Of a DNA stretch of 61,800 bases, positions 7,580 through 58,549 are shown piece by piece. This stretch comes from Segetibacter sp. (GTDB lineage Bacteria > Bacteroidota > Bacteroidia > Chitinophagales > Chitinophagaceae), in the NCBI GenBank assembly GCA_028288485.1, contig JAQBNO010000206.1:1-61800 (forward strand), given 5' to 3'. Every line of letters starts with the position of its first letter. Position 1 is the stretch's first letter. Below the pieces are notes generated by a model. It was not told the origin of the DNA and did no database searches. It saw only the letters and a list, made by a program, of their open reading frames with translations. The translations under genes and the position numbers were made by a program.

Positions 7580-7584
7580 CAGTT

Positions 7585-26422: not shown

Positions 26423-27709
26423 CTACACGAAGAAAGGCACATCCGGTAATGCATATTTCTTCATGCCTTCTTCATTTAAATCAACGCCAATTCCAGGTTT
26501 TTCAGAAACAGTAATAAAGCCGTCTTTTACCCAATCGCCATCATATTTTACAATGTCTTTCCACATTTGGTTTGTATGAAAATAGGCCTGCCATTCCAGT
26601 ATCATAAAATTAGGCACTGAGGCGCAGACGTGACAGGAAGCCATGCAGCCAAGAAATGACGCCACCATGTGGGGCGAAAACGGCTTGTAATATAAGTTAG
26701 CAAGGTTGGCAATACGTTGTCCTTCTCCCAATCCTCCGGTTTTTTGCAGATCGGGCATGACAATATCTATAGCCCCGATTTCGAGTGCTCTTCTGAAACC
26801 ATGAGCCATGTAATTGTTTTCACCATAACAGATGGGTATGCTGGTAGACTCGGTGAGCGATTTATAAATGTCTATATTTTCTGTAGGCATAGGCTCTTCA
26901 AGCCACATCAAATTGTATTTCTCTAAACGCTGGGCGACAGCTTGTGCCGTTACATAATCATATCTTCCATGCATGTCTATACAGATATCAATTTTAGGCC
27001 CTACCGCTTCCCTTGCCGCAGCAACCTGTTCCTCCATCCTTATTAACTCACCCGGACTCATCGTCCAGTTATAGCGGTCATATTTGTTTGGATCCGCTGC
27101 CTCGTCGATATCGTATTTAATAGCATTGAAACCCATGCTTACCCCTTTTTTTCCTGCATCCTGGTACTCCTTAACCGGCGGGTTCCTGATCGCATAAAAA
27201 ACTGTATCATAGTATACCCTAATCCTATCCCTAAACTTTCCACCTAATAACCGATACACCGGTACACCTAATGCTTTTCCGGCAATATCCCAAAGCGCAA
27301 TTTCTATAGCAGATAATACGGCTACATACATACCGGCCTGTGCTCCCTCAAAAATACCGCCTTTACGTATTTCGTCGAATATGCGATGGATATCTAATGG
27401 ATTTCTGCCCGTGAGGCGATTACCAAACCTCTTAACCAGGTAATAAGTTCCCGGTACAGCATCCACTCCTTCGCCATAACCTACAATACCCTGGTTAGTT
27501 GTTATTTTAATATACAGGCTGTTGACACCTTTGATAAACGCCGGGGTAACGCTTTCGATTTTTAAATCTGAAGGTGGAGAGGCCATTGGTGTTTTTTCAA
27601 TTGCTTCCTCCATTGGTTTGCCAAAGGTTGCCAGTGGGGCAAGTGGGGCCATTGCAGCAGCCAGCGCTGCCTTAGATAAAAATGATCTTCTTGAAGTTGA
27701 GTTTGACAT
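26423..27709 (-). CDS. Exported enolase-superfamily sugar-acid dehydratase (MR/MLE-type)
   Basis: ATG at 27709 gives 428 residues beginning MSNSTSRRSFLSKAALAAAM, a Tat signal with RRSFLSK; a TTG 96 bases upstream only extends into repeat-like sequence. The capping domain spans about 48-165 and the barrel follows. Candidate metal ligands are Asp245 (DICIDMHGRY, with His247), Glu271 (WLEEP) and Glu297 (CYGENNY); His347 (FSPH) is the likely catalytic residue, resembling galactonate-type dehydratases. It would dehydrate an aldonic or uronic acid to a 2-keto-3-deoxy acid. Such enzymes are normally cytosolic, so the Tat signal is unusual. The RraA-like and BASS genes lie just upstream on the same strand. 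Confidence 0.88.
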   Translation of the reverse strand: MSNSTSRRSFLSKAALAAAMAPLAPLATFGKPMEEAIEKTPMASPPSDLKIESVTPAFIKGVNSLYIKITTNQGIVGYGEGVDAVPGTYYLVKRFGNRLTGRNPLDIHRIFDEIRKGGIFEGAQAGMYVAVLSAIEIALWDIAGKALGVPVYRLLGGKFRDRIRVYYDTVFYAIRNPPVKEYQDAGKKGVSMGFNAIKYDIDEAADPNKYDRYNWTMSPGELIRMEEQVAAAREAVGPKIDICIDMHGRYDYVTAQAVAQRLEKYNLMWLEEPMPTENIDIYKSLTESTSIPICYGENNYMAHGFRRALEIGAIDIVMPDLQKTGGLGEGQRIANLANLYYKPFSPHMVASFLGCMASCHVCASVPNFMILEWQAYFHTNQMWKDIVKYDGDWVKDGFITVSEKPGIGVDLNEEGMKKYALPDVPFFV

Positions 27710-27723
27710 TAGTTGATCTTTTA

Positions 27724-27855
27724 ATGTAATTAGATGAGTGAGTGGTGAGTTGGCTGCAGTGAGCGGCGAGCGCCGAGTGGTGAATAGGCAGTGGTTCATG
27801 CTCAATAGTCAATGGTGAATGAGGCATCCATACTCACAACTCACTATTCACCATC
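27724..27855. repeat. Degenerate low-complexity repeat (AGTGAGTGGTGAATGG-like)
   Basis: Recurring GAGTGGTGAG, GTGGTGAATAG, CAATGGTGAATGAG and CTCACTATTCACCAT units on both strands fill the gap between the dehydratase and RraA-like genes. It is non-coding. Confidence 0.55.
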
Positions 27856-27856
27856 A

Positions 27857-28795
27857 TTACCAGGTGCGGTCTTTTAAATATTCCTGGATCTGTTCTTTGG
27901 GAACCGGAAGCTCACTGATATGATCGTTCAGCCATTTAGAGAAGTCTTTCTCTATTTCATCACTCCAGCGCGCATCTATCTGGCCAGCGGTATATTTACC
28001 CTCCCTTAAGCGCAGGTGTCCAAACATATCCCTTAAGCGTACAACTTCTGATGTCTTTACTACTTTTTCGGCTAAATGCGGAGGGATAAAGATGACAATG
28101 CCGCTCTTTCCTAAAACTACATCGCCCGGCATTACGGTTACCTGCCGGATTCGTGTTGGCTGATTAATACCAATGATCATGGTATTGAGGTCGCCGGGCG
28201 GATTGTGATACGAAGGATCGTAACTGGTGTAATACGATGTAAAACCACCTATTTCTTTTAAACCTTCAACATCTCTTAAAGCACCGTCATAAACAATACC
28301 ATTGCCGGTTTTTGCAAAAATGGCATTCCCAACGTTGTCTCCAATTGTCGGACCATTTTTATGTGCTCCAAACTGGTCCGCTACATACACGTCGCCTTTA
28401 ACTAACAACTCGACCGGCCAGCTATTTTGACCTTTTTTTCCGGCTTTTTTCCCCCTGGCATCAATTGCTCCCCATACGTCGGGACGGGCGGGCATAAACG
28501 TTGCCGTTACGGCTCGTCCAACCAAAACACTGTCTGGATTGATTTGTTGCCAGCCTTCAGCGATCTGGTAACCATAACCTGCATTTTTCATAACTGCCCA
28601 GGCCTCTTCCACGCTTACCAGTTTCATGCGTTTCATGAGGTTATCGGGAACCTTCGGGCGACCATCAGGAAACCGTTCCCCCTTCCACTCAGGCGTTAAA
28701 AAAAGGAGATCTTCTTTAGAAATCTGTTGAGTTTTCGCTTGCTGATAAAATGCGGAGAGCAGGAAAATAAGTAATAGGAATTTTAACCTTAACAT
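27857..28795 (-). CDS. Secreted RraA-family protein (aldolase/decarboxylase-like)
   Basis: 312 residues from the ATG at 28795; an upstream ATG at 28846 would precede the signal peptide with 17 extra residues. Signal peptide MLRLKFLLLIFLLSAFYQQA is followed by an RraA-type domain with GPTIGDNVGNAI, YDGALRDVEG (Arg174, Asp175, the family's substrate-binding pair) and the end strand GKSGIVIFIPPHLAEKVV. Relatives are 4-hydroxy-4-methyl-2-oxoglutarate aldolases/oxaloacetate decarboxylases as well as RNase E inhibitors; export rules out the last. With the neighbouring dehydratase it could act on a keto-deoxy acid in the periplasm. Export of this family is unusual. Confidence 0.8.
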   Translation of the reverse strand: MLRLKFLLLIFLLSAFYQQAKTQQISKEDLLFLTPEWKGERFPDGRPKVPDNLMKRMKLVSVEEAWAVMKNAGYGYQIAEGWQQINPDSVLVGRAVTATFMPARPDVWGAIDARGKKAGKKGQNSWPVELLVKGDVYVADQFGAHKNGPTIGDNVGNAIFAKTGNGIVYDGALRDVEGLKEIGGFTSYYTSYDPSYHNPPGDLNTMIIGINQPTRIRQVTVMPGDVVLGKSGIVIFIPPHLAEKVVKTSEVVRLRDMFGHLRLREGKYTAGQIDARWSDEIEKDFSKWLNDHISELPVPKEQIQEYLKDRTW

Positions 28796-28928
28796 AGAAG
28801 ATCGTATTGTGTGAGTAAAAATTTTAAAAAACCCCGACGCCCTCAAGGGGGCTTAATAACGCGATAACAGACGACCCAAGAATGCCCGGAAGAAATCCAA
28901 TTGCCAGGCTCATAAAAGAAAAAATAAT

Positions 28929-30077
28929 CTAAAGCTGCACAACACTTGAACCAGAAACATCCTTTTCATCTTTGGTGGCTTCATTTTCAACTTCCGGCGG
29001 CAGGCGGTTGTGCCACCAACTGGAAATTGAAGAACCTGTAATATTCATCATAGGTCCGAAAATAGCAGGTGCTAATCCAACCGTTGCCATCTTACCCATC
29101 GTTAAAGCAAGCCCCGAAGCAAGACCGGCATTCTGCATACCTACTTCCAGTGCTATCGTTCTGCAGTCTCTTTCAGGAAATTTCAACAATCGACCCGACC
29201 AATACCCCAGAAAAAAACCGGCGGCATTATGAATGAATGTAGCAATGATCAATAAGCCGCCCACTTTTAACAGGTTATCTCTGCCCGCGGCAACCATAAC
29301 CGTAAGAATTAGGGCGATGCCAACCATGGAAAGAATAGGCATAGCTTTATCGAGCCAACTGAATTTTCCATGGACCAGGTAGTGAAAAAGTAAGCCACCT
29401 ACAATGGGTATGATCACGATCTTAGTGATGTCCCAAACCATTGCCCAGAAATGTATTTCTACGAAACTGCCGCCCAACAGGTTCATTAATAAAGGCGTTA
29501 AAAAAGGAGCCAGCAAAGTAGATATGGTAGTTACTGAGACTGAAAGGGCAAGATTAGCCCTTGCCAGGTACGACATTACGTTGGAGGCCAGTCCGCTCGG
29601 GCAACAGCCCACCAGGATAATTCCTGCCGCAATTTCGCCTGGAAAATCAAACAGGTTCGCAACCGCAAATCCGATTAAAGGCATAATAGTATAATGGCAA
29701 ACAATTCCTACAATAATTCCTTTTGGCATGCGGAGTACCTGCGCAAAATCTGCAAGGCTTAATTCGGTTCCCATTCCAAACATAATTATTTGAAGCAAGG
29801 GAATAATAAGCGCCGAAAACTTAAAGCTGCCAACGCTGATAAAATGTTGGGGATAATACATGGCGAGGCTTACCACGGCCAGGATAATTACGGTAAACGA
29901 TAAACCTCTTAAAAATTTATTTCCCCGGAAACCGATTGCCAGGCAGGTAAAAAACAGCATCAGCACCCAGCCACCCCACGTATGGATTTGCCGGATTGTA
30001 ATAAAAATATATACAACGAAAAACAGGGCTGCTGGCAAGTAAAAAAAATTATAGATCGATTTATTTGAAGAATTCAT
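28929..30077 (-). CDS. BASS-family sodium-dependent organic anion transporter
   Basis: 382 residues with about ten membrane segments and family motifs IIPLLQIIMFGMGTELSLAD, ILVGCCPSGLASNVMSYLAR and LEVGMQNAGLASGLA. The two NA-site regions around GCCPSG and VGMQNAG match bile-acid:sodium symporter relatives. These transporters import organic acids such as pyruvate, pantoate or keto acids with sodium. As first gene in a row with the exported dehydratase and RraA-like protein, import of their acid product is a reasonable inference. The C-terminal 25 residues are polar and cytoplasmic. Confidence 0.88.
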   Translation of the reverse strand: MNSSNKSIYNFFYLPAALFFVVYIFITIRQIHTWGGWVLMLFFTCLAIGFRGNKFLRGLSFTVIILAVVSLAMYYPQHFISVGSFKFSALIIPLLQIIMFGMGTELSLADFAQVLRMPKGIIVGIVCHYTIMPLIGFAVANLFDFPGEIAAGIILVGCCPSGLASNVMSYLARANLALSVSVTTISTLLAPFLTPLLMNLLGGSFVEIHFWAMVWDITKIVIIPIVGGLLFHYLVHGKFSWLDKAMPILSMVGIALILTVMVAAGRDNLLKVGGLLIIATFIHNAAGFFLGYWSGRLLKFPERDCRTIALEVGMQNAGLASGLALTMGKMATVGLAPAIFGPMMNITGSSISSWWHNRLPPEVENEATKDEKDVSGSSVVQL

Positions 30078-31003: not shown

Positions 31004-34000
31004 CTATTTTTTTAATGTCAGTATATATCTCGCTATTTCCATGGCGTCTTGTTTAGGAATTTGTGGATGCGGTGTCATTGGTATTTGGCCCCATGCACCT
31101 GCTCCACCCGAAATTATCTTTCCAGCCAATCTTTCTAATACCGCCGGACTACTTTTATAACGTTTCGCAATATCCGCAAATGCAGGTCCAACCAGTCTCT
31201 GCTTTACTGCGTGGCAGGCTTTACAGTCACTTTTAGCCATTAGGGCCATTCCCTGGCTTGCCGACACTGTTGGCTTTTTGACCGGGGCAGATGGTTTCTT
31301 TAGGTTGTCACCCGGCAATTTTCTCACCGGAGCTTTTGGCCCTGTTGGAGGCGTTGTAATCGGCTTTTCTCCGGTTTTCGGTTTTTTCTCATTTTCCGGC
31401 TCTGCAACAACCTCTTTCCCTCCACCCTCAAACCTGACCCAATCTACCGAACCGATATTTTTGTTAGGTGTATCGAGCTTTACAAAGAGAAAATACAGGT
31501 CATGCTTTCCAGTCACATCCGATACCGGTGCGCTTAATTCAACAAACTTATTTCTAGCACCCGTTGGCTTATAATTTAAAGTGCTGACAACTTTTCCTTG
31601 TAGCGAATCAATATGTACCCTAATTGTCGCACCCTTGTCCAACGACGCTATTCTATATGTAACGTTGTCGATGTCGTGCAGGTCGATGTTTTTAAACATA
31701 AAATACGACCTGTTGTTAAGACCGGCCAACCCCTGGTCTGTCTTGCGCAGGTTATAAACGTTATCCGCGTCTTCCACCTGCACTTTAGCCGGACGTAAAA
31801 CCAATACGTCCCTGTTGGTAAGCGGAGTAATAGCACCGCCTTTATCGGTATATGAAGCGGTGAGGATATACCTGCCTTCTTCACCTCCGCCAACGTGTTC
31901 GCCTAATATTACAGAACCTTCCTGCGGAAGCGCTTTTTCTTCCCGCTTATTAGAAACTGAAAGAACATATTTCACGATCTCTGTTGCATCTTCTTTTGAT
32001 AATTGAGGGTGTGCACTCATTGAGGGTTCTCCCCACACACCTGAACCGCCAGTGATAATTTTATTGGCGAGGTAACCCGGCGCATTCTTATCATTTATAT
32101 ACTTTTTGGAAATAGCCATGAAAGAAGGACCGACTGATTTTGCATCCATCTGGTGGCAGGCTTTACAATCGCTGTTGGCCATTAACGACAAACCATAGTT
32201 GTAGTTTTCATTAATTTGCTGGTGTCCCATCTGTGCCTGTGCACCGGCAACTTTAGGAATGTATTTTAAAGACACCTTTACATTCTTTTTATCGATTGCA
32301 CCATCTTCTTTATCGGATACATCTACCTTATAGTTCAACGCGGTGGTTTTACTAAAGAAAAATGTACTGTTGTCTGTAGCACGGATAGCAACCTGCGGTA
32401 AGGTGTTGCCCACTTTAATTTCCATCGTATCGCTACTGCTGCTGCCGTTCTGGTCGGTTACTTTTAAAACTGCGTTATAAACGCCGTTGTTGCCAAAGGT
32501 GTAGGAAGGATTGGGCAGTGTAGAAATTGGCTTGCCGTCAACGCTCCATTCATAGGTAAGCCTGTCATCTTCATCGGGATCGAAGCTGTTACGACTTGCA
32601 AACGTTACTTTTAACGGGGCTAGCCCAATCGTATCTCTTGTGTTTATTTTTGCAACAGGTGCCCTGTTTCCTCCGTTATAGTCGATACGCACTAACCGGG
32701 CATCTGTATTATTGATCCCGTAGACTGAACCGTATTCAAGCATATACATTGAGCCGTCGGGGCCAATTTCAACATCAACCGGACGGCGAAAATCGCCATT
32801 GGTTGCCATGAAAGGATCCATTCTCTTGTAATTATAATTCTCGTCTAACCGCACGGCAAAAACCCAGTTTCGCATCCAGTCATAAATGAAAAAAGCTTTG
32901 TCGTAAAAAGCCGGCAGTTTTGTTGATGAAGTTGAAGCAGCATCATAATGATAGATGGGGCCGCCCATTGCACACCTTCCACCAACGCCTAAAGCCGGAA
33001 ATTCTTCTGCCAGGTTGTATGGGTAATATATCAAAGGTTTTTGAGGGGCCGGAAGAAGTTTAATACCGGTATTGTTGGGCGAGTTATTTGTCGGGCCGCT
33101 TTCATTAAATAAGGGGCCGATTGCTTTTGTAGCGAAGTCCGAATCATTATAGGCTTTGTTGTTACCAACAAAAAACGGCCAGCCAAAATTACCCGGCTGG
33201 CGTGCCTGGTTAAATTCATCATAGCCCCTTGGACCGTGGCGGCTGTCCTGGCCTGCATCAGGACCAATTTCGCCCCAATATAGAAAAGAAGTCTCCTGGT
33301 CAACAGCAATCCTATATGGATTACGGCAACCCATAACGTAAATTTCAGAACGGGTTCCCGGCGTGCCTTTAGGAAACAAATTACCTTCAGGCACGGTATA
33401 AGAGCCATCGGGCTCGGGATGAATACGTAAAATTTTACCGCGAAGATCATTGGGATTACCTGCAGAGCGTTGTGCATCATAAATCTGACGTCCTGGTCTT
33501 TCATCCATCGGTGCATAGCCGTCTGATTGAAAAGGCACAGTATTATCTCCGGTACCAATAAACAAGTTTCTGTTTTTATCCCACGCTAATGATCCCCCCG
33601 TATGCGCACTAACTTCAAGGTCGATCGGGATTTTTATGATTATTTTTTCGGAGGCTATATCGAGGGTGCCGTCCTGGGAAATAACAAAGCGGGAAATATT
33701 CTGGTGATATTGAGAGTCGGTATTCGAAGAATAAAAGAAATAGATATAATTGTTTTGGCTGAAATCAGGATCAAGCGTAATGCCTATTAAACCGTTCAAA
33801 TATTTTTCTACTGCTTTTACAGGGAAATCGTATACCAGCTTTGTTTTTTTGGCTACCGGGTCGTACATATAAAACTTCCCGCCTCGCTCTGTAAAAAACA
33901 CACGACCGTCGGGAGCAACCGCTAATTCCATCGGCTCATTCAAATCGTCGGAAAGAATCGTTTTCGTGAAACGGTTATCCTCAGGTGATTTAACTGCATA

Positions 34001-34789
34001 GGCTTTTGAATAATCTAAAGGCTGGTTATTTCCGATCGCATATTTAATTCCTCCCAACAAATGTTGCAGGTATTGCGTATCAAAGTAGCTTTCTTTGGTG
34101 TGACCAGCGCCAGTATAAAAAGCCCTTCCACCGTCAAACTCGTGGTACCAGATAAAAGGATGAGTGTCGCCGTTTTGACCGCCCTGGTAAGTAGTCTCGT
34201 CGAGGTTTGCCAACACTTTCAGGTCGGGTTGTATGTTTTTGAAATTGTACCACTCATCAAAACGTTCCCAGTTTTGCGGTAAAACAGAAGAAGCCGGGTG
34301 GTTTTTATCTGTAACAATAATGGTAGCTTTTTGCTGCCTGGGATGACTGAGAAATTGAGCGCCCACCAGTTTATTATACCATGGCCAGTCGTATTCGGTA
34401 TCGGTGGCTGCATGAATGCCAACAAAATTACCGCCTGCCTGTATATAGCGTTCAAAAGCTACCTGCTGGTCGGCATTCAGAACATTACCCGTAGTACTTA
34501 AAAAAATGACCGCGCTATATTGTTTCAGGCTGTCTTCAATAAAATAGGCCGAATTGGAAGTGGTATCAACGGTGAACGCGTTCTCACTTCCCAACTTTTG
34601 AATGGCCGCTGCACCGGTAGGAATAGATTCATGAAAATACCCCTTCGTTTTGGTAAATACCAGCACCCGCGGCTTCACTACCGGCTGCGAACCGGCAGTA
34701 TTGGTCTTTGAAGTTTTACAAGCGTAAAAAATGCTGAAGCAACAAACGACAGCAGTTAAGGCAAGTAACAGTTTTTGTTTAGATAACAT
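31004..34789 (-). CDS. Multidomain redox lipoprotein: ThuA - PQQ-type propeller - PKD - cytochrome c - CBM-like - cytochrome c
   Basis: 1261 residues. Lipobox FYAC at Cys24. Domains: ThuA-like (about 40-255, VLVFTKTKGYFHESIP, GIHAATDTEYDWPWY); soluble glucose/sorbosone-dehydrogenase-type propeller (about 273-705, LNEPMELAVAPDGRVFFTER, RGKILRIHPEPDG, RNPYRIAVD); PKD (about 708-795); cytochrome c with C875xxC878H879 and likely Met924; carbohydrate-binding-like module (about 1000-1122); Pro/Lys linker; second cytochrome c with C1189xxC1192H1193 and Met1238. It would oxidise a sugar at the propeller, pass electrons through two haems, and may transform the keto-sugar through ThuA. Similar fusions are known in Bacteroidota genomes but function is unproven. 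Confidence 0.85.
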   Translation of the reverse strand: MLSKQKLLLALTAVVCCFSIFYACKTSKTNTAGSQPVVKPRVLVFTKTKGYFHESIPTGAAAIQKLGSENAFTVDTTSNSAYFIEDSLKQYSAVIFLSTTGNVLNADQQVAFERYIQAGGNFVGIHAATDTEYDWPWYNKLVGAQFLSHPRQQKATIIVTDKNHPASSVLPQNWERFDEWYNFKNIQPDLKVLANLDETTYQGGQNGDTHPFIWYHEFDGGRAFYTGAGHTKESYFDTQYLQHLLGGIKYAIGNNQPLDYSKAYAVKSPEDNRFTKTILSDDLNEPMELAVAPDGRVFFTERGGKFYMYDPVAKKTKLVYDFPVKAVEKYLNGLIGITLDPDFSQNNYIYFFYSSNTDSQYHQNISRFVISQDGTLDIASEKIIIKIPIDLEVSAHTGGSLAWDKNRNLFIGTGDNTVPFQSDGYAPMDERPGRQIYDAQRSAGNPNDLRGKILRIHPEPDGSYTVPEGNLFPKGTPGTRSEIYVMGCRNPYRIAVDQETSFLYWGEIGPDAGQDSRHGPRGYDEFNQARQPGNFGWPFFVGNNKAYNDSDFATKAIGPLFNESGPTNNSPNNTGIKLLPAPQKPLIYYPYNLAEEFPALGVGGRCAMGGPIYHYDAASTSSTKLPAFYDKAFFIYDWMRNWVFAVRLDENYNYKRMDPFMATNGDFRRPVDVEIGPDGSMYMLEYGSVYGINNTDARLVRIDYNGGNRAPVAKINTRDTIGLAPLKVTFASRNSFDPDEDDRLTYEWSVDGKPISTLPNPSYTFGNNGVYNAVLKVTDQNGSSSSDTMEIKVGNTLPQVAIRATDNSTFFFSKTTALNYKVDVSDKEDGAIDKKNVKVSLKYIPKVAGAQAQMGHQQINENYNYGLSLMANSDCKACHQMDAKSVGPSFMAISKKYINDKNAPGYLANKIITGGSGVWGEPSMSAHPQLSKEDATEIVKYVLSVSNKREEKALPQEGSVILGEHVGGGEEGRYILTASYTDKGGAITPLTNRDVLVLRPAKVQVEDADNVYNLRKTDQGLAGLNNRSYFMFKNIDLHDIDNVTYRIASLDKGATIRVHIDSLQGKVVSTLNYKPTGARNKFVELSAPVSDVTGKHDLYFLFVKLDTPNKNIGSVDWVRFEGGGKEVVAEPENEKKPKTGEKPITTPPTGPKAPVRKLPGDNLKKPSAPVKKPTVSASQGMALMAKSDCKACHAVKQRLVGPAFADIAKRYKSSPAVLERLAGKIISGGAGAWGQIPMTPHPQIPKQDAMEIARYILTLKK

Positions 34790-38171: not shown

Positions 38172-38289
38172 GTTTTCAATGGCTTTTAAATCGTAGTAGC
38201 GACAATTATAGTTGAAGATAAGGATATACACAAATACTTTTCACAACAATATTAGGTCGTTCTTTGAAGTAGATGAAACAGGGTAAAGA

Positions 38290-48748: not shown

Positions 48749-51700
48749 TTATAATTTCATGTTGAAACCGAACATGAAAATTCTTGAAGTTGGATAAACT
48801 GAATTATCAATTCCCTGTTCAGTAACCTCAGGATCTAAGCCGCTGTATTTTGTTATGGTAAAGAGGTTAACTGCCTGGAAATAGACACGCAGGCTGCCCA
48901 GCTTCAGTTTAGAGAGCATTTTAGGAGTTAATGTATAACCTAGTTGAAGGTTTTTCAAACGTGCATAGTCTCCGTTCTCGATAAAGTAGGTAGATGGCAA
49001 TTGCATGTTTGCATCGTTATTGATAGTAATTGGCACAGTTATATTTGCACCGCTCGCATAACGGTCAGGTGTCCAGGATTCGTACAAGCGCTTTCTCAGG
49101 TAGTTACCATCATTACGGATGAAGAGCATGTTGCGACTTACAGAATTTATGATCTTTCTTCCCTGTAGGCCCTGTAAAAACAGGTCGAGGTCCCAACTCT
49201 TATATTTAAGGTCAACATTAAAGCCATAAGACAAATTAGGATTGCCATCACCAAGAAAGGTACGATCTGTCGGAGTAATTTTTCCGTCGCCGTTCACGTC
49301 TTTGAACTTAAATACACCTGGCATGCTGTACACGTCAACCCCGGCAACATTGGGATTGAATTTCGGAGATTTGGCAACCTCTTCGGCAGTATTAAAAATG
49401 CCTTCAACAATATAGCCATAAAACGACTCCAGTGCCTTTCCTGTAACAGTAGCAGTATTGAAACTTGCTTCAGTGGCATTTCCAAAACGGATCTCGTTAG
49501 GATTACCGTTCAGCTTAACTACCTGGTTTTTGTAATGCGAGATATTGGCATTCACTGTATAACTAAAGTCTTTACTTGCCCGGCCGCGATACGTCAACAT
49601 CAGGTCAAAACCAGTATTCTTCATTTCACCAATGTTAACATTCGGCAAAATTACTTCACCCCAGGTTGCAGGTTTAGAGTCAGAATAAAGCATATCTATT
49701 GTAGATCGGCTGTATACATCTAAACTTGCTTCAAATTTTGACTTAAACAACGATACATCAACACCAACATTCGTTGCTATACTCGTTTCCCACCTTCCGT
49801 TTGGATTTCCCAATGTTGACTGGTGCATTCCTGCTGTTGCAGCGCTCCTGCTTGAACCGCTGATATTGTAGTAAGATTCAAATCCATTTGCAATAAAAGT
49901 CGTATAGGCATTATAGTTACCCACATTATCGTTACCGTTCTTGCCCCAGCCTGCACGAAGCTTCAGGTCGGTTATCCAGTTTATGTCATCCATAAAACCT
50001 TCCTGCGAAATTCTCCAACCGGCAGAAAATGCGGGGAAAGTACCCCAACGGTATTTGCCTACGAACCTTGAAGAGGCGTCACGGCGAATCACTCCCTCCA
50101 AAAGGTACTTTCCCTTATAATCGTAGTTTAACCTGCCGAAATAAGAGAAAAGCCTGTTCTGGTCGAAGGATCCCGTATTAACCACATCTCTTTGACCAGC
50201 ACTTAAAACCATATAATCAAGATCTGTAAATGCGAAGGTTGAACGGCCACCGGAAACAAATTGGGTGCTGTTATCAACCGCCTCTGTACCGACTAAAACA
50301 TTAAAATGATGATCGTCTTTAATAGTCTTCAGATAATTCAATGTATTTACCCAGTTGTATTGTAAACCGGTATTCGAGGAGGATGTGAGATTGCTTACCA
50401 GTTGGGTTTGGTTAAATTCAGGATCTATAAGGGTACGGTCTAATGATTTTCCTTCATCGAAACTAACACCGAACAAAGTTTTGAAGATCAGGTCCTTGGT
50501 GAAGGAAATTTGTGCATAAGGGCTGGCCTGCATCAATAATCTCCTGTTATAATCATCATTGTTTCTTATCAATTCAGCTACCGGGTTACGCTGGTTACCC
50601 GTCGAAGGGGTCTTTGACCCTGCAAAGTTTCCCCTGATGTCGTAGATAGGCAGAAGCGGGCTAATGCTCAGCACAGCGGTTGCTGGTGCTGTTCCCACCG
50701 TGCCCTTTAAATTAATGTATGTACTACTAAGGCTTACGCCAATTTTTGCCCAGTTGTTCACTTGAACATCGGCATTTGATCGGAGTGAGTACCTTTTAAA
50801 GCCTCCGTTTGTTGCTTTATTAAAGGCATCTCCACCATAGTTTACAATACCCTTTTGGTCCAAATATCCGCCAGAAATGGAAAAATTACTTTTACCTGCA
50901 ACTCCTCCACTTACCGAAAGGTTATATTCCTGGATGGGCGCTTTTATAAAAACTTTTTCATACCAATCTATTTCTCCCTTGTTCGTCCTGGTTATTCCAT
51001 TATAAGGGGTTGGATAGCTATAAGTGCTTTCGTCAACCTCGCCTTGCATTTTGCCTGCGGGAAAGATGTAGTCGGGAAGTCGCGGTGTTGCACCAACTCC
51101 GTATTGTGCATTGCCCCAACCAGCATCGCCGGGTCTAAGACCCATGTTTTTAAATTTCTGCCAAAGGTTTTCTCCTGCCTCCTGCGAATTCATTAAATCA
51201 GGACGATTGGTTTTCTCCTGAATACCATAACGAACATCAAAACTCAAACTAGGCTGTCCGCCTTTACCACGCTTTGTTGTTACTACGATAACACCATTTG
51301 CAGCTCGTGAGCCGTATATCGCCGAAGATGAAGCATCTTTTAATACTGTCATAGACTCGATGTCGTTTGGATTTATGTTATCCATACTCGTTCTCGGGAT
51401 GCCATCAACAACGTAGAGCGGGTTATTATTTCCTAAAGAGCCATAACCACGTACACGCACAACAGCGGCAGCACCCGGAGCATTATTATTCGTAACAGTC
51501 ACACCGGCTGCCCTACCTTGTAGCCGGGAAGCAGGATCACCTGTTGGAATAGCACGTAAATCCTCTTCCTTAACGGTAGCGACAGCACCGGTAAGGCTTT
51601 TTTTCTGTTGTACACCATAACCTACTACTACAACTTCTTGTAGTGCTGTTCCTGCAGTGGCCATAGCCAGATCAATTACTGATCTGTTATTAACAGGCAA

Positions 51701-52015
51701 TTCTTGTGGGGTAAGTCCGATAAAAGTAAAAACCAAAGTACCATTGCGGTTTGGAACGTTAATAGAGTACTTCCCATTCACGTCAGTTGATGTAGCGATC
51801 TGTGTGTTTTTTACCGCTACACTTGCACCAGTAAGTGGCTTGCCGTCCGGGTCCGTTACTGTTCCCGACACCGACAGGTTTTGGGCAGACGTTTGAAGGG
51901 AAGTACTGATGGTGAGTAAAAAAGCGATAAGAAGACTAAGGTGTCTTTTGTGAAGAAAAAGCCGTGGTTTTAAGTAACCCAAGGCAGGGGGTTGAGGGGT
52001 AAATTGTTGTTTCAT
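48749..52015 (-). CDS. SusC/RagA-family TonB-dependent transporter, second pair
   Basis: 1088 residues. An N-terminal extension and signal (LSLLIAFLLTISTSLQTSAQ) precede the carboxypeptidase-regulatory domain (about 48-118, SVSGTVTDPDGKPLTGASVA), the plug (VVVGYGVQQKKSLTGAVATV, about 130-150; SAIYGSRAANGVIVVTTK) and the barrel ending RIFMFGFNMKL. It imports SusD-bound ligands in a TonB-dependent way. No extra anti-sigma-interaction domain is present. The first 40 residues (MKQQFTPQPPALGYLKPRLF) before the hydrophobic stretch make an unusually long signal, so the start may be at a later codon. Confidence 0.93.
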   Translation of the reverse strand: MKQQFTPQPPALGYLKPRLFLHKRHLSLLIAFLLTISTSLQTSAQNLSVSGTVTDPDGKPLTGASVAVKNTQIATSTDVNGKYSINVPNRNGTLVFTFIGLTPQELPVNNRSVIDLAMATAGTALQEVVVVGYGVQQKKSLTGAVATVKEEDLRAIPTGDPASRLQGRAAGVTVTNNNAPGAAAVVRVRGYGSLGNNNPLYVVDGIPRTSMDNINPNDIESMTVLKDASSSAIYGSRAANGVIVVTTKRGKGGQPSLSFDVRYGIQEKTNRPDLMNSQEAGENLWQKFKNMGLRPGDAGWGNAQYGVGATPRLPDYIFPAGKMQGEVDESTYSYPTPYNGITRTNKGEIDWYEKVFIKAPIQEYNLSVSGGVAGKSNFSISGGYLDQKGIVNYGGDAFNKATNGGFKRYSLRSNADVQVNNWAKIGVSLSSTYINLKGTVGTAPATAVLSISPLLPIYDIRGNFAGSKTPSTGNQRNPVAELIRNNDDYNRRLLMQASPYAQISFTKDLIFKTLFGVSFDEGKSLDRTLIDPEFNQTQLVSNLTSSSNTGLQYNWVNTLNYLKTIKDDHHFNVLVGTEAVDNSTQFVSGGRSTFAFTDLDYMVLSAGQRDVVNTGSFDQNRLFSYFGRLNYDYKGKYLLEGVIRRDASSRFVGKYRWGTFPAFSAGWRISQEGFMDDINWITDLKLRAGWGKNGNDNVGNYNAYTTFIANGFESYYNISGSSRSAATAGMHQSTLGNPNGRWETSIATNVGVDVSLFKSKFEASLDVYSRSTIDMLYSDSKPATWGEVILPNVNIGEMKNTGFDLMLTYRGRASKDFSYTVNANISHYKNQVVKLNGNPNEIRFGNATEASFNTATVTGKALESFYGYIVEGIFNTAEEVAKSPKFNPNVAGVDVYSMPGVFKFKDVNGDGKITPTDRTFLGDGNPNLSYGFNVDLKYKSWDLDLFLQGLQGRKIINSVSRNMLFIRNDGNYLRKRLYESWTPDRYASGANITVPITINNDANMQLPSTYFIENGDYARLKNLQLGYTLTPKMLSKLKLGSLRVYFQAVNLFTITKYSGLDPEVTEQGIDNSVYPTSRIFMFGFNMKL

Positions 52016-52834: not shown

Positions 52835-53698
52835 TTACGCAATAAACAGGTTGCGTAAAAAATGAAGGCCTTCCGAAGCAAATCTGTCCTGGCTTTCGGC
52901 CATTGGATGCCAGAAGCATACAGCGCCGGCAAGTTCTTTATTTTCAGGCGTAAAACTTTCTATGGAAACCGTTCCTTTATAATTGATTGCTTCCAGGCCT
53001 CTTTTATAAGCATCCCAACGGGTTTGACCGGTTCCGGGTGTACCACGGTAGTTCTCTGAAACCTGGAAATGAATGAGTTTGTCACCTGCGCTGATAATTG
53101 CCTTTTCTACATCCGGCTCTTCAATATTCATGTGAAAGCCATCGAGGATTATTTTAGCAGCTGGATGAGAAATATCATCTATGAGGCGAATGACATCTGC
53201 TGCAGTGTTAACCAAATCTGATTCGAACCTGTTCAGCGGTTCTAATGCGATCTCAAGGTTACGTTCCCCTGCCATCCCGCAAACCTTCTGCAGGTTTTTT
53301 ACTGCCAGTTCCCATTCCTTTTTTCGTTGTTCGGGAGGAACCATCCTGGCTTTACCTACAGCGGAATACATAGGGCCGGCCAAAAAAGAGGTGTCCCACG
53401 CATTACATAAATCGAAACACGAACGGAGGTAAGCAAAACAATTTTCATGAATGGCAGGATCTTCATGTGTAAGGTCGCGTGTAGGGCCAAAGGCCGCACA
53501 AACTACTGCATGCAAACCGTAATCTTTCAACCCTTGTTTTACAGCTTTTGCATCAATTAAAGCCGGGTCTTCCACGGCAATTTCAACTGCATCAAATCCC
53601 ATGTCTGCAACCTTTGAAAATATTGCAGGTATAGATTCTGTTGTAAAAGGTGAGGTCCAGAGCCAGGTTGTAACGCCAAATTTAATTTGCAGGGGCAT
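52835..53698 (-). CDS. D-tagatose 3-epimerase-like TIM-barrel sugar epimerase (cytosolic)
   Basis: 287 residues without a signal peptide. Family motifs: start IKFGVTTWLWTSPFTTESIP; EIALEPLNRFESDLVNTAAD (metal Glu); KIILDGFHMNIEE (Asp, His); HFQVSENYRGTPGTGQ (His, Arg); VSIESF (second metal Glu). This pattern fits D-tagatose/D-psicose 3-epimerase and L-ribulose 3-epimerase relatives, which act at C3 of ketoses. Handling C3-modified sugars fits a 3-keto-sugar pathway. Minus strand between the second susC and the ThuA/cupredoxin gene; gaps on either side suggest its own transcript or a shared one with the upstream gene. Confidence 0.88.
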   Translation of the reverse strand: MPLQIKFGVTTWLWTSPFTTESIPAIFSKVADMGFDAVEIAVEDPALIDAKAVKQGLKDYGLHAVVCAAFGPTRDLTHEDPAIHENCFAYLRSCFDLCNAWDTSFLAGPMYSAVGKARMVPPEQRKKEWELAVKNLQKVCGMAGERNLEIALEPLNRFESDLVNTAADVIRLIDDISHPAAKIILDGFHMNIEEPDVEKAIISAGDKLIHFQVSENYRGTPGTGQTRWDAYKRGLEAINYKGTVSIESFTPENKELAGAVCFWHPMAESQDRFASEGLHFLRNLFIA

Positions 53699-54026: not shown

Positions 54027-57000
54027 CTATTGTGTTACCCTTAAAATACCTTGCATAATTCTCCAGTGACCAGGGAAAGTACAAACGTAAGGATAGTCGC
54101 CCGGTGTTTTAGGTACTGTAAAAGTGAGGGTAAATTTACCTCCTGGGTTAACAAGCGGAGTGGCTTGCAATACCTCTGGCATCCTTGGTACATAATTCAA
54201 CTTGGTACCGTTGGGATCCATTGCCAGCTTATCGGCTGCGACCCCTACTTTCTCGGTTGTTTTTGGTTTTATCAACACAAGGTTGTGCTGCATATGATCG
54301 GGATTTTGGAAAACGATCTGGATTGTAGTACCGGCTTTTGCGGTAATTAAAGTTTGCCTGAATTTCATTACATCTTTAATTACACTTACAACAATTACTT
54401 TTGAAACTACCGGTTTTCCGGCTGCTGCAACGCTCTTGGGTGAGCCAGGTGTAAACACCTCGAGTCGGCCACCGGTTAAAGCCGCACGGATCCTAAAAGT
54501 ATCGGGGTAGTCTCCTACCTTGTCTTTACCAAGTTTGTCTTCAACGCCAACCCTTAAACCCTGCTTGAAAGGCACTGTAAACAATCCTGAGGCGAGTGTG
54601 TTTGCAACTTGTTTACCATTAATTGTCAGTCCCATTGCACCCTCTTTCAGCAAAGTTGCCCTGAAGGTTACCTTGCCTGTAGCTGGTAAGCTTTCACTGT
54701 TTAAGGAGTATGACTTTCCTTCCTGGTTTACCTGGAAATACAATTTATTTTCCTTCAGGAATAGGCCATAGCCGTTCAGTATATCGCCATGAGCTGCTAC
54801 TAAACCCTGGTAAGGAAGATCCCTGAACTTTGTTAAATCACCTGAGATATTAATTTCCTTATTCGTTACATCGGGCGCTTCAATTACCGGTGCAGCCGGA
54901 CCTCTGCGTATCGTAAGAGGAACAGAAGTAATCCTGTTGAGCATAGCCAGGCGCTGTGCCAATGAAGCTTCACCGATGTTGGTGGTGGCAGTAGCTACTC
55001 CTCTCCTGGTGAAGGCAGCCGCGAAACTGGTTTGATTGTTGGCAGCCGCTGCAGTAATAGCATATTTCAACCAGGTATCTTTTTCATTTTCTGGTTTCAG
55101 CGCAACATTTACCAGTGCTTCACCAATCTCCGCAGCAGGTTTCATATCGGCTAAGGCAAGGATTGCAGCCATTTTAACTCGTCCGTCGGCATCGTCCAGA
55201 ACCTTTGCTCTCTGTATTGCAAGAAATGTAGCTGTGGTTCTTGGTAAAACCTGTAAAGCTGCCCTGCGCACACCTGCAACCGGGTGAGATAATGCTTTAA
55301 CTGCCACATCTAACGCTTCTTTGTTGGTACCGTCCAATGCTTTTAAACCGTGCATGGTCCAAAGTGCATGAACAGCCGACGGGTTAATTCCTGCTTCGTC
55401 TGCTTTTGGATTTCTAACCAGTTTATATAATTCAGGCAAAACAGTCTTGTCACCATTCTCAACCAATAAACGTTGAGCGGTTGTGCGCCAGAACATGTTA
55501 TTATTGGAAAGTGCGGTTATAAGACCTTTAGAATCGGTTTTGCTTAAAGTAAGGGTATTCTTCTGGTCTCTTTCTTTATATACAATACGGTAAATACGGC
55601 CACGTTCGTGGTCCCTTAATGGATTAATATAAGCATTTCCCTTACCGTTCTGCGCCTGGTATCCACCGCGATCAGGTGAAGGAGTTGGATTATGCTGGAT
55701 AATGAAATCGTACCAATCGGCAACCCAAAGAGAGCCATCAGGACCAACTTCTGCATGTACGGGTCCAGCCCAATCGTCGCCACTGGTAAGTATATTCCAT
55801 CCGTCTCCATCTTCTTTAAAGCCTGCTCCGTCCTGCTTCAGTATGGTTCGGTGAATGACCCGACCAGTAGGTTCATTTACAAAGGCCACCCTGTTCCAAT
55901 ATTCCTTTGGGAAGTTCCTTGCAGTATACAGGTTATGACCTGCTGCTGCAGTGAATCCGCCCTGTACATCTACCTGGCGAAGATTTTTTGTTCCAACGTG
56001 CATTTCATAGTGCGCATCCAATTTTTCAACGCCGGATTCATCAATTTTACCCATAGCGAGGTACTTCCGGTCGATACCATAAAAGCCTGTATGTGTGTTA
56101 TTTGCTGTGGAAATAAACACATCAAAATCTTCTGAAAAACCAAGGCCCCAGGTATTGTTACTGGTGGTAGAAAGGTATTCCATTTTTTTACCGTCGGGTG
56201 TGAAGCGGTAAAGACCTGAACTGAACCTCATAGCACTATCGCCTACTTTACCATTAAAGCCAGAATAACCAACAACACCCCAAATTTTATTATCCAGTCC
56301 GTAGTGAAGGTTAGATGCCTGGGCATGGGTATCATCTTTACCCCAACCGGTAATAATAGGTTGCCTGATATCAGCTTTATCATCGCCATTCGTATCCTTC
56401 AGGAATAGAAAGGAAGGAGCATTGCTGACAACAATACCGCCGTTAGAAAATACAAAGCTGGTTGGAATGTTTAATTTATCGGCAAAAACGGTAAATTTAT
56501 CTGCCTTGCCGTCGCCGTTTGTGTCTTCACAAATTTTAATACGGTCATCTCCTGTATCACCCTCTTTTATCTCGTTAGGATAATCTATCGTTTCAATCAC
56601 CCACAGTCTTCCTCTTTCATCCCAGTTCATGAAAACGGGGTTCCTGATGTCGGGTTCAGAAGCAAACAATTGCAGGTCAAATCCAGGGGGAACTTGCGTT
56701 AAAGTCATAGATTCCTGGGGTGTCAAAGGGGACTGAAATTTTGGAGGAGGATTACGACGCTCGTAATTCGGGATTTGTGCGTCTTCAGTATAAGTTGGTT
56801 GAGCTATCTTAAAAGCTGCAAGATTGGCTTTCGCCTTATCTCCTACGGCCCACAAAATTCCGTTCTTCACCAGGCTTAAAAATCCGGGATTGTTAAAAGT
56901 AACCTCATCATGACCATAAGCGGTATAAAATACTCTTCCGTCACCATAAGGTCTAACCCAGGTATAGGGCTCGTGATGGTTGCCCTCTACCCTTTCAGAT

Positions 57001-57542
57001 AATACCTCGATATTCTTGCTGATTTTGGTATGAACATAGGTTTCATCTTTGGTCATAAAAGCGTTGATGCCTTTCATAACCGCGTGCTCGGGTTTAACAA
57101 TCACTGCAGGAAAAGAATCTACTTTATGGGTAGAAAACTGTCCCCCGATCATTTCTACTACCTCGGGTGAGTTACGGAAGCAGTAAGAAGCGCAATGAAG
57201 CGGAATAAACCCCTTACCCCCTCTTACAAAACCAAGCAGCGCTTTTTCCTGGTCCTTGCTTATTTCATCATAGTTCGCATACAAAACCAGCCCGTCATAA
57301 TTCTTCAGGTTGGCTTCATTCATCGCGTTTGGATCATTTGAATAAGTAATATTTATCCCGTCCTTAAAATATTCCTTGTTTAATATATCAGCGAGCACCT
57401 GCGAATCGTGGTGTTTGCTTTTATGACCCAAAAACAAGATTTCAAGGCGACGGGGCTTATCAGTATCTATATTTCTTGCTGCGATAAAGCAAATAGAAAA
57501 AAGACAAATAAGACCTAAGAGGAGACGTTTGTGTATATTCAT
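54027..57542 (-). CDS. Multidomain redox protein: ThuA - PVC-type propeller - HEAT - concanavalin-like - azurin-like cupredoxin
   Basis: 1171 residues with a signal peptide (LLLGLICLFSICFIAARN). Domains: ThuA (about 30-245, LEILFLGHKSKHHDSQVLAD, IPLHCASYCFRN); propeller (about 285-650, FDLQLFASEPDIRNPVFMNW); HEAT-like repeats (about 665-865); a beta-sandwich of DUF1080/LamG type (about 885-1035); and a C-terminal type 1 copper domain. In the last, His1086 (MQHN), Cys1154, His1159 and Met1163 in CTFPGHWRIM match azurin's ligands with identical spacing (C-x4-H-x3-M). Electrons from the propeller can pass to copper rather than haem, unlike the two other dehydrogenases here. ThuA suggests keto-sugar chemistry. 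Divergent from the AraC gene. Confidence 0.88.
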   Translation of the reverse strand: MNIHKRLLLGLICLFSICFIAARNIDTDKPRRLEILFLGHKSKHHDSQVLADILNKEYFKDGINITYSNDPNAMNEANLKNYDGLVLYANYDEISKDQEKALLGFVRGGKGFIPLHCASYCFRNSPEVVEMIGGQFSTHKVDSFPAVIVKPEHAVMKGINAFMTKDETYVHTKISKNIEVLSERVEGNHHEPYTWVRPYGDGRVFYTAYGHDEVTFNNPGFLSLVKNGILWAVGDKAKANLAAFKIAQPTYTEDAQIPNYERRNPPPKFQSPLTPQESMTLTQVPPGFDLQLFASEPDIRNPVFMNWDERGRLWVIETIDYPNEIKEGDTGDDRIKICEDTNGDGKADKFTVFADKLNIPTSFVFSNGGIVVSNAPSFLFLKDTNGDDKADIRQPIITGWGKDDTHAQASNLHYGLDNKIWGVVGYSGFNGKVGDSAMRFSSGLYRFTPDGKKMEYLSTTSNNTWGLGFSEDFDVFISTANNTHTGFYGIDRKYLAMGKIDESGVEKLDAHYEMHVGTKNLRQVDVQGGFTAAAGHNLYTARNFPKEYWNRVAFVNEPTGRVIHRTILKQDGAGFKEDGDGWNILTSGDDWAGPVHAEVGPDGSLWVADWYDFIIQHNPTPSPDRGGYQAQNGKGNAYINPLRDHERGRIYRIVYKERDQKNTLTLSKTDSKGLITALSNNNMFWRTTAQRLLVENGDKTVLPELYKLVRNPKADEAGINPSAVHALWTMHGLKALDGTNKEALDVAVKALSHPVAGVRRAALQVLPRTTATFLAIQRAKVLDDADGRVKMAAILALADMKPAAEIGEALVNVALKPENEKDTWLKYAITAAAANNQTSFAAAFTRRGVATATTNIGEASLAQRLAMLNRITSVPLTIRRGPAAPVIEAPDVTNKEINISGDLTKFRDLPYQGLVAAHGDILNGYGLFLKENKLYFQVNQEGKSYSLNSESLPATGKVTFRATLLKEGAMGLTINGKQVANTLASGLFTVPFKQGLRVGVEDKLGKDKVGDYPDTFRIRAALTGGRLEVFTPGSPKSVAAAGKPVVSKVIVVSVIKDVMKFRQTLITAKAGTTIQIVFQNPDHMQHNLVLIKPKTTEKVGVAADKLAMDPNGTKLNYVPRMPEVLQATPLVNPGGKFTLTFTVPKTPGDYPYVCTFPGHWRIMQGILRVTQ

Positions 57543-57679
57543 GGCAATACGTTAATTCGTTATAGCGAAATTAGACAGCGAATATCGGGAAATTGATTTA
57601 CAAAAGATGTTATGATTATATCAAAAATTGACTGTATTTTGTCATTAAATTAATTGAATTTTCAGAATTAGAGAAAACA

Positions 57680-58549
57680 TTGAAAACTGCCCTTCATAAA
57701 TCTGCCATTCCGGAGACTAAAATATTTTTAGTAAGAGACCTGCAGGAAAAGCACTTCGATGCAACCTGGCATTCCCATTCGGAGTACCAGCTCTTCCTGG
57801 TGATTGAAGGATCGGGCACTCGTTTTATTGGCGATAGCATCAAACACTTTGGCCCGGGAGAACTGGTGTTTACCGGCCCTCATCTACCGCATCTATGGCG
57901 AAGCGAGGAAGCGTATTTTGAAAAAAACAGTGAACTACAAACAAGGGGAATTGTAATTTACCTGAACGAACATTTTTTAGGTGAAGACATATTGGCCAAA
58001 GAGGAATTCGTGCACCTCAAAAAGCTCTTCACAAAATCGATGCGGGGACTCGAGTTTTACGGCAACAAAAAGGAGCAGGTAATCCAATTGATGAATGAGC
58101 TAACTCAAATGCAGGGAATTGAAAGTGTTATTCATTTACTTCAAATTCTTACCATTCTTTCTTCAACCAAAGAATATCATTATATCTCCCCGCTTACCTA
58201 TCAAAGTCCGCTTAAAGAATTAGAAACAGACAGGATGAACCAGGTGTACGAATACATTTTTAAAAACTACCGTAAGAAAGTGTTGCTTGAAGATGTAGCC
58301 GCTTTACTTCACATGACCCCCACTTCTTTCAGCCGTTATTTCTCATCTATAAATAACAAGCCCTTCTCCCGTTTTCTTTCAGAGATCAGGATCAAACATG
58401 CGTGTAAGATGCTGAACGAAACCGAAGAGTCTATTTCAAATATCTGTTACGATTCCGGCTTTAATACCCTTTCCAATTTCAACAACCAGTTTAAGGAAGT
58501 TATGTCGAAAACGCCGATGGAGTATAAGAAGGAGTTTAGGAATCTGTGA
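57680..58549 (+). CDS. AraC-family transcriptional regulator
   Basis: 289 residues starting at TTG (57680), as no ATG exists in the first 140 codons of the frame; it starts KTALHKSAIPETKIFLVRDL. N-terminal cupin sensor (about 20-110, HSHSEYQLFLVIEGSGTRFI) and a C-terminal AraC double helix-turn-helix (about 195-288, VLLEDVAALLHMTPTSFSRY, HACKMLNETEESISNICYDS). It should sense a sugar or similar ligand. Divergent transcription from the ThuA/cupredoxin gene across only 137 bases makes that gene, and perhaps the epimerase and SusCD downstream, the likely target. Confidence 0.9.
   Translation: MKTALHKSAIPETKIFLVRDLQEKHFDATWHSHSEYQLFLVIEGSGTRFIGDSIKHFGPGELVFTGPHLPHLWRSEEAYFEKNSELQTRGIVIYLNEHFLGEDILAKEEFVHLKKLFTKSMRGLEFYGNKKEQVIQLMNELTQMQGIESVIHLLQILTILSSTKEYHYISPLTYQSPLKELETDRMNQVYEYIFKNYRKKVLLEDVAALLHMTPTSFSRYFSSINNKPFSRFLSEIRIKHACKMLNETEESISNICYDSGFNTLSNFNNQFKEVMSKTPMEYKKEFRNL

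Follow-up and report, generated by a model that had tools for sequence, protein, structure and literature searches.

The 61.8-kb window analysed here (61,800 nucleotides) is one entire contig (JAQBNO010000206.1; C115 in our labelling, in which G stands for a sampled genome, C for a contig and L for a fetched locus) of the 220-contig, 6.38-Mb genome of a Segetibacter sp. (GCA_028288485.1). Its 32-kb stretch from 26423 to 58549 consists of at least four separate gene sets, units A, B, C and D, lying side by side, and not of one pathway. The best explanation of the whole, which is held tentatively and with slightly less than even confidence, is that unit D lies inside the operon of unit C and encodes a predicted oxidation of glycosides by a quinoprotein, followed by cleavage by DUF1080 and DUF6807 proteins. 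The initial annotation had read the stretch as a single periplasmic oxidative glycoside pathway. Every protein family that it listed was present where it had been placed (list of open reading frames, ORFs, and Pfam), and its count of four large dehydrogenase-like proteins in 32 kb, with three types of electron carrier and two fusions to ThuA, was borne out by Pfam and CxxCH sites: heme c sites occurred in three of the four (two, one and one) and a cupredoxin in the fourth. Extracytoplasmic oxidation coupled to keto-glycoside cleavage did not fit the locus as a whole, but best fits unit D, whose pyrroloquinoline quinone (PQQ) dehydrogenase and DUF6807, often with DUF1080, recur together in Bacteroidota, also as fusions. 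Likewise, relatives had no conserved neighborhood corresponding to the whole region, while two of its sub-parts were conserved; a narrower version of that reading, confined to units C and D, is supported by gene context. Unit D comprised the following genes.

41830..42750, minus strand: DUF6807 protein (PF14100), lipoprotein-like start
42760..44142, minus strand: double DUF1080 protein (3-keto-disaccharide hydrolase family; PF06439 twice), lipoprotein-like start by eye
44412..46709, minus strand: PQQ quinohemoprotein dehydrogenase with a cytochrome c inserted in the propeller (PF01011, E 1e-189), lipoprotein-like start
47011..48705, minus strand: SusD-like lipoprotein (Pfam)
48749..52015, minus strand: SusC-like TonB-dependent receptor (Pfam)

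Comparisons were based on a family sample of 117 genomes (window genome counted in), a phylum sample of 345 genomes and a species-wide scan of one genome for each of 84,980 species. Export signals and N-termini of window proteins were judged by eye from the sequence, the Pfam scan covered the 18 larger window proteins between 26423 and 60260, and the short-type DUF6807 and other gene types in the loci were called with profiles of our own, Pfam being used on selected fusions. The species-wide scan with the DUF6807 protein alone revealed 17 loci. A PQQ dehydrogenase adjoined DUF6807 in 13 of these (L120-L129, L131, L132, and L135), representing about six lineages, with 8 of the 13 from Cyclobacterium, and three others carried DUF6807-DUF7133-HEAT-cytochrome c fusions (L130 from Cytophagaceae, Bacteroidota; L133 from Planctomycetota; L134 from Verrucomicrobiota); the last, L119, was cut by a contig edge and its partner was not judgeable. 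DUF1080 was itself fused to DUF6807 in 10 of the 13 PQQ-linked loci (L121-L128, L132, and L135). Pfam confirmed the four fusions on which it was run (one DUF1080-DUF6807 and three DUF6807-DUF7133), the other nine DUF1080-DUF6807 fusions being called from our profiles; fusions bearing DUF6807 spanned three phyla. The planctomycete contig, from a metagenome-assembled genome (MAG), also had a Gfo/Idh gene 62% identical to that of the window beside its DUF6807-DUF7133-cytochrome c fusion (L133:8760-13792).

Within the phylum, PF14100 matches were found in 44 of 345 genomes (88 rows), of which 40 regions were fetched and about 40 others stood outside the count, including contig-edge pieces in G367 and G363. 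The short-type profile split the fetched regions into 11 loci scoring 423–465 bits and 29 scoring at most 72 bits. The 11 had been chosen by a match start at model position 20 or higher, except G325, chosen for a long open frame; L147, chosen likewise, was of another DUF6807 type (35 bits) and was counted with the others. As a check on this choice, 20 more regions were fetched, and all were of other types (at most 72 bits). Ten of the 11 short-type loci were DUF6807-DUF7133-cytochrome c fusions, and the eleventh (L146) combined a PQQ dehydrogenase, DUF6807 and double DUF1080. Each of the 27 short-type loci that were judgeable (16 + 11) hence had a PQQ quinohemoprotein or a DUF7133-cytochrome c protein as partner. 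In the controls, a PQQ dehydrogenase occurred in none of the 29 loci with other DUF6807 types and in none of 13 double-DUF1080 loci, a DUF7133 fusion in none of the 29 (a separate DUF7133 gene in three, L203, L205, and L207), and a short-type DUF6807 in none of 19 loci around family PQQ dehydrogenases. A family-wide PQQ dehydrogenase neighborhood was rejected on these same 19 loci, which had neither DUF1080 nor short-type DUF6807. The other DUF6807 types kept different company, with a Gfo/Idh gene of 450–503 amino acids (aa) near 15 of the 20 last-fetched loci. In three of the other-type loci (L202, L210, and L211), our profiles also called DUF6807-ThuA fusions beside Gfo/Idh genes of about 480 aa.

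Phylogenetic analysis of DUF6807 (29 rows) placed the PQQ and DUF7133 partner types on two sides of one branch (100/99), with the window protein on the PQQ side, close to those of Parapedobacter and Cyclobacterium (99/97). In the PQQ dehydrogenase tree (35 rows), the window enzyme sat on a long branch (0.96) within a group of solitary enzymes from its own family (96/85 for the smallest starred set, of 12 rows), while 14 other PQQ dehydrogenases linked to short-type DUF6807 formed one separate clade (100/100); L117, tagged as linked in this tree, has a DUF6807 of another type and was not counted. Because the window enzyme lies outside the linked clade whereas its DUF6807 is on the PQQ side, a PQQ dehydrogenase joined DUF6807 at least twice. 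In our reading, the dehydrogenase was probably swapped beside a retained DUF1080-DUF6807 pair, and such a swap would be the best evidence that the quinohemoprotein oxidation step belongs to the function.

The PQQ dehydrogenase of unit D had the motifs HHDLWD, GGAN, Lys and CxxCH; all 13 rows compared kept the Asp of HHDLWD, which we take to be the catalytic Asp, as well as the Lys and CxxCH, and L096 deviated at the Trp/Phe and at GG[ATV]N. The viral-contig scan gave no relative of this enzyme. A 58-nt inverted pair (84%) flanked its gene, at 44251-44308 and 46759-46816. The nearest solved structure to the double DUF1080 protein was 4jqt (392 bits), and the DUF6807 gene begins 9 bases after the DUF1080 gene. 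A search of solved structures by sequence gave no match to DUF6807; its predicted model had a predicted local distance difference test score (pLDDT) of 87.8 from 15 sequences and resembled mutarotase-like sandwiches, with GH36 alpha-galactosidases, OpgD/MdoD and aldose 1-epimerases as the nearest solved folds (best E 5e-6). Together with invariant His, Asp and Arg residues, the modelled fold would suit a sugar enzyme, without naming a reaction. Of the usual content of a polysaccharide utilisation locus, the SusC/SusD pair was present, and the Pfam matches between 26423 and 58549 included no glycoside hydrolase or lyase besides DUF1080.

The genes of unit C, which enclose unit D, were as follows.

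40492..41610, minus strand: Gfo/Idh oxidoreductase without export signal (PF01408), parted from its unit C partners by unit D
52835..53698, minus strand: TIM barrel without export signal, 3-epimerase-like (PF01261)
54027..57542, minus strand: ThuA-DUF7133 propeller-HEAT-azurin fusion with a signal-like start (Pfam)
57680..58549, plus strand: AraC-type regulator (PF12833, cupin), divergent from the ThuA-DUF7133-azurin gene

Orthologues of the window Gfo/Idh, 60–95% identical, were found in 27 other loci (7 in the family, 20 in the phylum), and the ThuA-DUF7133 partner adjoined them in 23. In the family, orthologues at 70% identity or more occurred in seven other genomes, and ThuA-DUF7133, with or without azurin, was adjacent in six, counting L084, whose contig ends within the fusion; no partner was seen in the seventh (L085), whose contig starts 1.2 kb upstream. 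The TIM barrel was present in four of the seven and AraC in four, in the same divergent position in L079, L081 and L083. Across the 345 phylum genomes there were 20 further orthologues at 60% or more, all of them fetched, with ThuA-DUF7133 and azurin in 17, the TIM barrel in 15 and a window-like AraC in 8; the ThuA-DUF7133 partner was absent at L192, L193 and L195. Neither DUF7133 nor azurin occurred in any of the 13 double-DUF1080 loci used as a control, 12 of which had another Gfo/Idh type. From the conservation over 27 loci and this clean control, it follows that unit C is a real, phylum-wide operon. Within the DNA fetched, none of its 27 loci showed a PQQ dehydrogenase or short-type DUF6807. 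The window stands out by the placement of unit D between the TIM-barrel and Gfo/Idh genes. The arrangement is partly not unique to it, since a Chitinophagales MAG contig (L119), which ends at these genes, shared the order DUF1080x2-DUF6807-Gfo/Idh (79, 79 and 93% identity). The GC profile did not shift at the boundaries of unit D, and no convincing repeats marked them as insertion ends. A second, diverged set resembling unit C was observed in L075 (G000:C128) and L086 (G098:C1), with a ThuA-DUF7133-azurin protein about 50% and a Gfo/Idh 49% identical, and an extra small ThuA gene.

The ThuA-DUF7133-azurin protein scored 252 bits against TIGR02604, over the cut-off of 122, and the ThuA domains of the two window fusions matched PF06283 with 259 and 128 bits. 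Its azurin domain (PF00127) contained H-N and C-T-F-P-G-H-W-R-I-M and hence the His, Cys, His and Met that we take to be the type-1 copper ligand pattern. At L185, L187 and L190, azurin was a gene of its own neighboring ThuA-DUF7133, which suggests that azurin is a dedicated electron acceptor. The best NCBIfam match of the barrel was D-psicose 3-epimerase (171 bits, under the cut-off of 300).

The scheme proposed here draws on gene content, conserved neighborhoods, fusions, separate dehydrogenase recruitment and conserved motifs; its substrate, step order and compartments (the last from N-termini judged by eye) are predicted. The SusC/SusD pair would take a glycoside into the periplasm, where the PQQ quinohemoprotein, the ThuA-DUF7133-azurin protein (DUF7133 being a putative dehydrogenase) or both would oxidise it, probably at C3, and heme c or type-1 copper would hand the electrons on to the respiratory chain. 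Cleavage of the keto-glycoside, by elimination or hydrolysis, would then fall to the DUF1080 protein, and DUF6807, with its mutarotase-like sandwich fold, may process the keto-glycoside or the keto-sugar that is formed from it. After release and uptake, this keto-sugar would be fed back into central metabolism by the 3-epimerase-like barrel and the Gfo/Idh enzyme in the cytoplasm. That glycosides can be degraded through 3-keto sugars, and not by direct hydrolysis, has been recognised only recently; if the scheme is true, DUF6807 units couple it directly to respiration via quinoproteins or copper proteins, and functional hypotheses follow for DUF6807, DUF7133 and export-type ThuA domains. The families concerned occur in Bacteroidota, and DUF6807-DUF7133 fusions also in Planctomycetota and Verrucomicrobiota. 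A broader claim, possible yet short of probable, is that DUF6807 is the hallmark of respiratory systems for glycoside cleavage that span several phyla and have gone unrecognised as a class. In these, an interchangeable periplasmic oxidase (PQQ quinohemoprotein or DUF7133-cytochrome c) would make a keto-glycoside for processing by DUF6807, which is in some cases fused to the oxidase or to an optional DUF1080. The same claim holds that ThuA-DUF7133-azurin, TIM barrel and Gfo/Idh form a second, copper-linked system of this kind across the phylum, both merged in this genome beside one AraC, and that DUF7133 is a new sugar dehydrogenase family.

Several observations weigh against the proposed scheme. 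The DUF7133 model of the unit C protein was poor (pLDDT 61) and matched propellers; its best fold match was HHIP, presumably a non-enzyme, followed by PQQ aldose sugar dehydrogenase, sGDH and AA12. The fold matches of DUF6807 had TMq of 0.30–0.54 among the 50 matches listed, YidC included. DUF1080 was absent from the fetched DNA of three of the 13 PQQ-linked loci (L120, L129, and L131) and from all 13 DUF7133-fusion loci, and lay near only 11 of the 17 species-wide and 1 of the 11 phylum short-type loci; as it is not a constant partner of DUF6807, the keto-glycoside link rests on the remaining loci. No locus other than the window was observed to combine units C and D, and the gaps within unit D range from 9 to about 300 bases, with 819 bases between SusC and the barrel gene, so that a single transcript is no more than putative. 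A PqqC search had no match, yet was equally silent in 14 controls. The PQQ dehydrogenase was nearest to the membrane glucose/quinate/shikimate dehydrogenase group (TIGR03074, 502 bits, under the cut-off of 833), whose glucose members act at C1. Finally, in Pedobacter no lactose phenotype was found for any DUF1080 gene (PMC9007349).

The TIGR03074 match and the absence of DUF1080 from DUF7133-fusion loci would also be expected if free aldoses, polyols or cyclitols were the substrates of the dehydrogenases, oxidised at C1 or a ring hydroxyl, with DUF1080 and DUF6807 serving otherwise. Cyclitols would be indicated in particular by the unit C barrel and an IolG-like Gfo/Idh: the best NCBIfam model of the latter was inositol 2-dehydrogenase (80 bits, far under the cut-off of 355), and the barrel scored with both 3-epimerase and IolO models, below their cut-offs. 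The repeated linkage and fusion of DUF1080 to dehydrogenase-linked DUF6807 is hard to explain on these terms without a keto-glycoside, and this alternative is regarded as rather unlikely.

Oxidation of a glycoside followed by its cleavage, as proposed for unit D, has several known counterparts. No GMC-type dehydrogenase, the type to which LacA presumably belongs, was among the Pfam matches of the 18 window proteins scanned (26423-60260). ThuAB trehalose oxidation in rhizobia pairs ThuA with a Gfo/Idh-type enzyme, and the window also has a ThuA domain with a Gfo/Idh enzyme nearby; unlike in ThuAB, its ThuA is part of a polypeptide that also holds a propeller and an electron carrier and that begins like an exported protein. 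The Bacteroides thetaiotaomicron genes BT2156-BT2160 bring together DUF1080, Gfo/Idh and TIM-barrel genes, as in the window. Family double-DUF1080 loci (13 fetched of 63 full-length matches) had a Gfo/Idh gene of 430–475 aa nearby in 12 of 13; next to the DUF1080 gene of the window stands a PQQ dehydrogenase instead. Unlike BT2158, the window Gfo/Idh had no visible export signal and scored 41 bits against the BT_2158 model (cut-off 750), oxidation in the window being assigned to quinoproteins. In the parts of each source covered, BT2158 is a periplasmic glycoside 3-dehydrogenase (PMC11300592), and deletion of BT2157 or BT2158 caused no growth defect on raffinose-family sugars (PMC11501099). 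The covered parts of PMC9007349 describe DUF1080 proteins as acting on 3-keto-glycosides, a DUF1080 gene as needed with LacABC for lactose in Caulobacter, and DUF1080 with a periplasmic dehydrogenase as an established pairing. This LacABC and DUF1080 route of Caulobacter and Pedobacter is like the window in its periplasmic oxidation, exported DUF1080 and nearby epimerase/reductase genes; the window differs in its dehydrogenase (a PQQ quinohemoprotein or DUF7133 protein), the addition of DUF6807 and the presence of SusCD (PMC9007349, same parts). Unit D may be a variant of the LacABC/DUF1080 and BT2157-BT2158 periplasmic keto-glycoside routes. In open-licence PubMed Central literature, DUF1080 and PQQ were not found together, absence from print thus not being shown; DUF6807 turned up in one paper, as the last number of a series, and any of DUF7133, TIGR02604 or related names likewise in one.

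DUF7133 and related propellers might instead be glycosidases, with heme or copper domains as accessories, which appears improbable given that all four proteins bear a heme or copper carrier, an indication of electron transfer. Support for this view comes from a protein made in E. coli BL21(DE3)pLysS, a strain that carries lacZ. According to the parts of PMC5342196 covered, a Lac+ cosmid encodes a TIGR02604-HEAT-cytochrome c protein and, perhaps in one operon with it, a PF14100 protein, and the former, purified as Lac161_ORF7 from that host, was said to release glucose from lactose; the assay measured glucose, the authors noted a Km like that of LacZ, and activity was also obtained in it with a GGDEF-domain protein. 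The lacZ host, the LacZ-like Km and the active GGDEF-domain protein make this assay doubtful, and we infer that LacZ contamination is possible. The Lac161 locus, a Verrucomicrobia cosmid, resembles the window in having a TIGR02604-HEAT-cytochrome c gene near a PF14100 gene and confers a Lac+ phenotype in S. meliloti; unlike the window, it was read as a new beta-galactosidase and has enolase-superfamily and DUF377 genes, and no PQQ dehydrogenase is named in the covered parts (PMC5342196). Judged from those parts, the cosmid phenotype and gene pair fit oxidation and cleavage as proposed for the DUF6807 loci, the enzyme assay being weak.

The remaining genes of the 32-kb stretch belonged to units A and B.

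26423..27805, minus strand: MR_MLE (sugar-acid dehydratase-like) enzyme with a twin-arginine translocation (Tat) motif (PF13378/PF02746), unit A
27857..28846, minus strand: RraA-family protein with a signal-like start (PF03737), unit A
28929..30077, minus strand: BASS transporter (PF01758), unit A
31004..34789, minus strand: ThuA-GSDH-PKD-CBM6-2x cytochrome c protein with a lipoprotein-like start (Pfam), unit B
35133..38231, minus strand: DUF7133-HEAT-cytochrome c protein with one CxxCH (Pfam), unit B
38722..39618, plus strand: xylose-isomerase-like TIM barrel with a Tat-like start, divergent (PF01261), unit B

The MR_MLE protein scored 237 bits against the galactonate dehydratase model (cut-off 311) and had the motifs DMHGR, LEEP, GEN and SPH and the Tat motif SRRSFL; a TatC gene was found in the genome. 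The BASS transporter scored 246 bits against a PanS-like model (cut-off 400). D-X20-R-D, which we take to be the motif rule for RraA-type class II pyruvate aldolases, was present at residue 170 of the RraA protein and in all 15 orthologue ORFs listed for L009-L025, the window's own counted. Orthologues of RraA at 70% identity or more were found in 16 other genomes of the family sample; the MR_MLE gene adjoined RraA in all 16 and BASS was present in 12, and signal-like starts and the [ST]RRSF Tat motif recurred among the orthologues. At least one sugar-acid catabolism gene was present in 15 of the 16 regions (exception G007), with IlvD in 12 and FGGY in 13. This gene set, named from proteins of G002 and G083, comprised an FGGY kinase (best model gluconokinase), an aldehyde dehydrogenase, an L-arabinonate-dehydratase-like IlvD, an FAH-family protein, a GntP permease and a gluconolactonase-like protein, and its recurrence identifies unit A as a sugar-acid module. 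Unit A is possibly an extracytoplasmic sugar-acid branch of dehydratase, RraA lyase and BASS importer. It shares the RraA family with the HMG/CHA aldolase and FlDet in the parts of PMC8563752 covered, the keto-sugar-acid context being that of FlDet; unlike those, the unit A protein has a signal-like start and neighbors that include a Tat-motif dehydratase and BASS. No azurin, DUF7133 or short-type DUF6807 gene was present in the 15–40 kb fetched around each of the 16 loci; stray homologues nearby were of PQQ dehydrogenase (a gene 15 kb off in G077, a fragment in G048), DUF1080 (G086 and G027) and ThuA (G007 and G077).

In unit B, the two CxxCH sites of the ThuA-GSDH fusion lay at residues 875 and 1189. 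Relatives of the DUF7133-HEAT-cytochrome c protein at 48% identity or more occurred in 14 other genomes, and only in one, the same-genus G098, did the ThuA-GSDH fusion adjoin it, with an orthologue of the Tat-like TIM barrel (83% identity) in the same place. A DUF7133 neighbor was present in none of six other ThuA-GSDH loci, fetched from nine further full-length matches with at least 57% identity. In G081 and G077, a separate ThuA gene of unrelated length and a TIM barrel adjoined the DUF7133 gene, so there is also a looser link of ThuA, DUF7133 and TIM barrel.

A single co-ordinated periplasmic pathway that takes in every gene from 26423 to 58549, as the initial annotation proposed, is therefore very unlikely, although the families fit a sugar-oxidation theme, most genes share a strand and many have export-like starts. 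Against it stand the sugar-acid context of unit A, the adjacency of the unit B pair in 1 of 14 genomes and the own partners of unit C, and G098 carries these units on separate contigs (A on C2, 545 kb; B on C10, 214 kb; C on C1, 835 kb). The shared stretch is also weaker evidence than it appears, because the 12 ThuA matches of the genome give about 0.5 expected pairs within 23 kb under uniform placement; the closeness of the two ThuA genes was dropped as evidence for this reason.

The remainder of the window looks separate from this stretch. Translations alone indicated a pectin-type locus at 409-16109, with a pectate lyase-like, two pectinesterase-like, two acetylesterase-like and a GH43-like gene, SusCD and a LacI-like regulator, and, between it and unit A, Ku-like and split LigD-type genes of non-homologous end joining at 17855-21627. 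An interspersed repeat, GTGCGACGCAA, occurred in eight window copies at no more than one mismatch (0.76 expected), at positions 8477, 17680, 30210, 30839, 44259, 46798, 52444 and 61356, and its core was found in 43 of 195 fetched loci.

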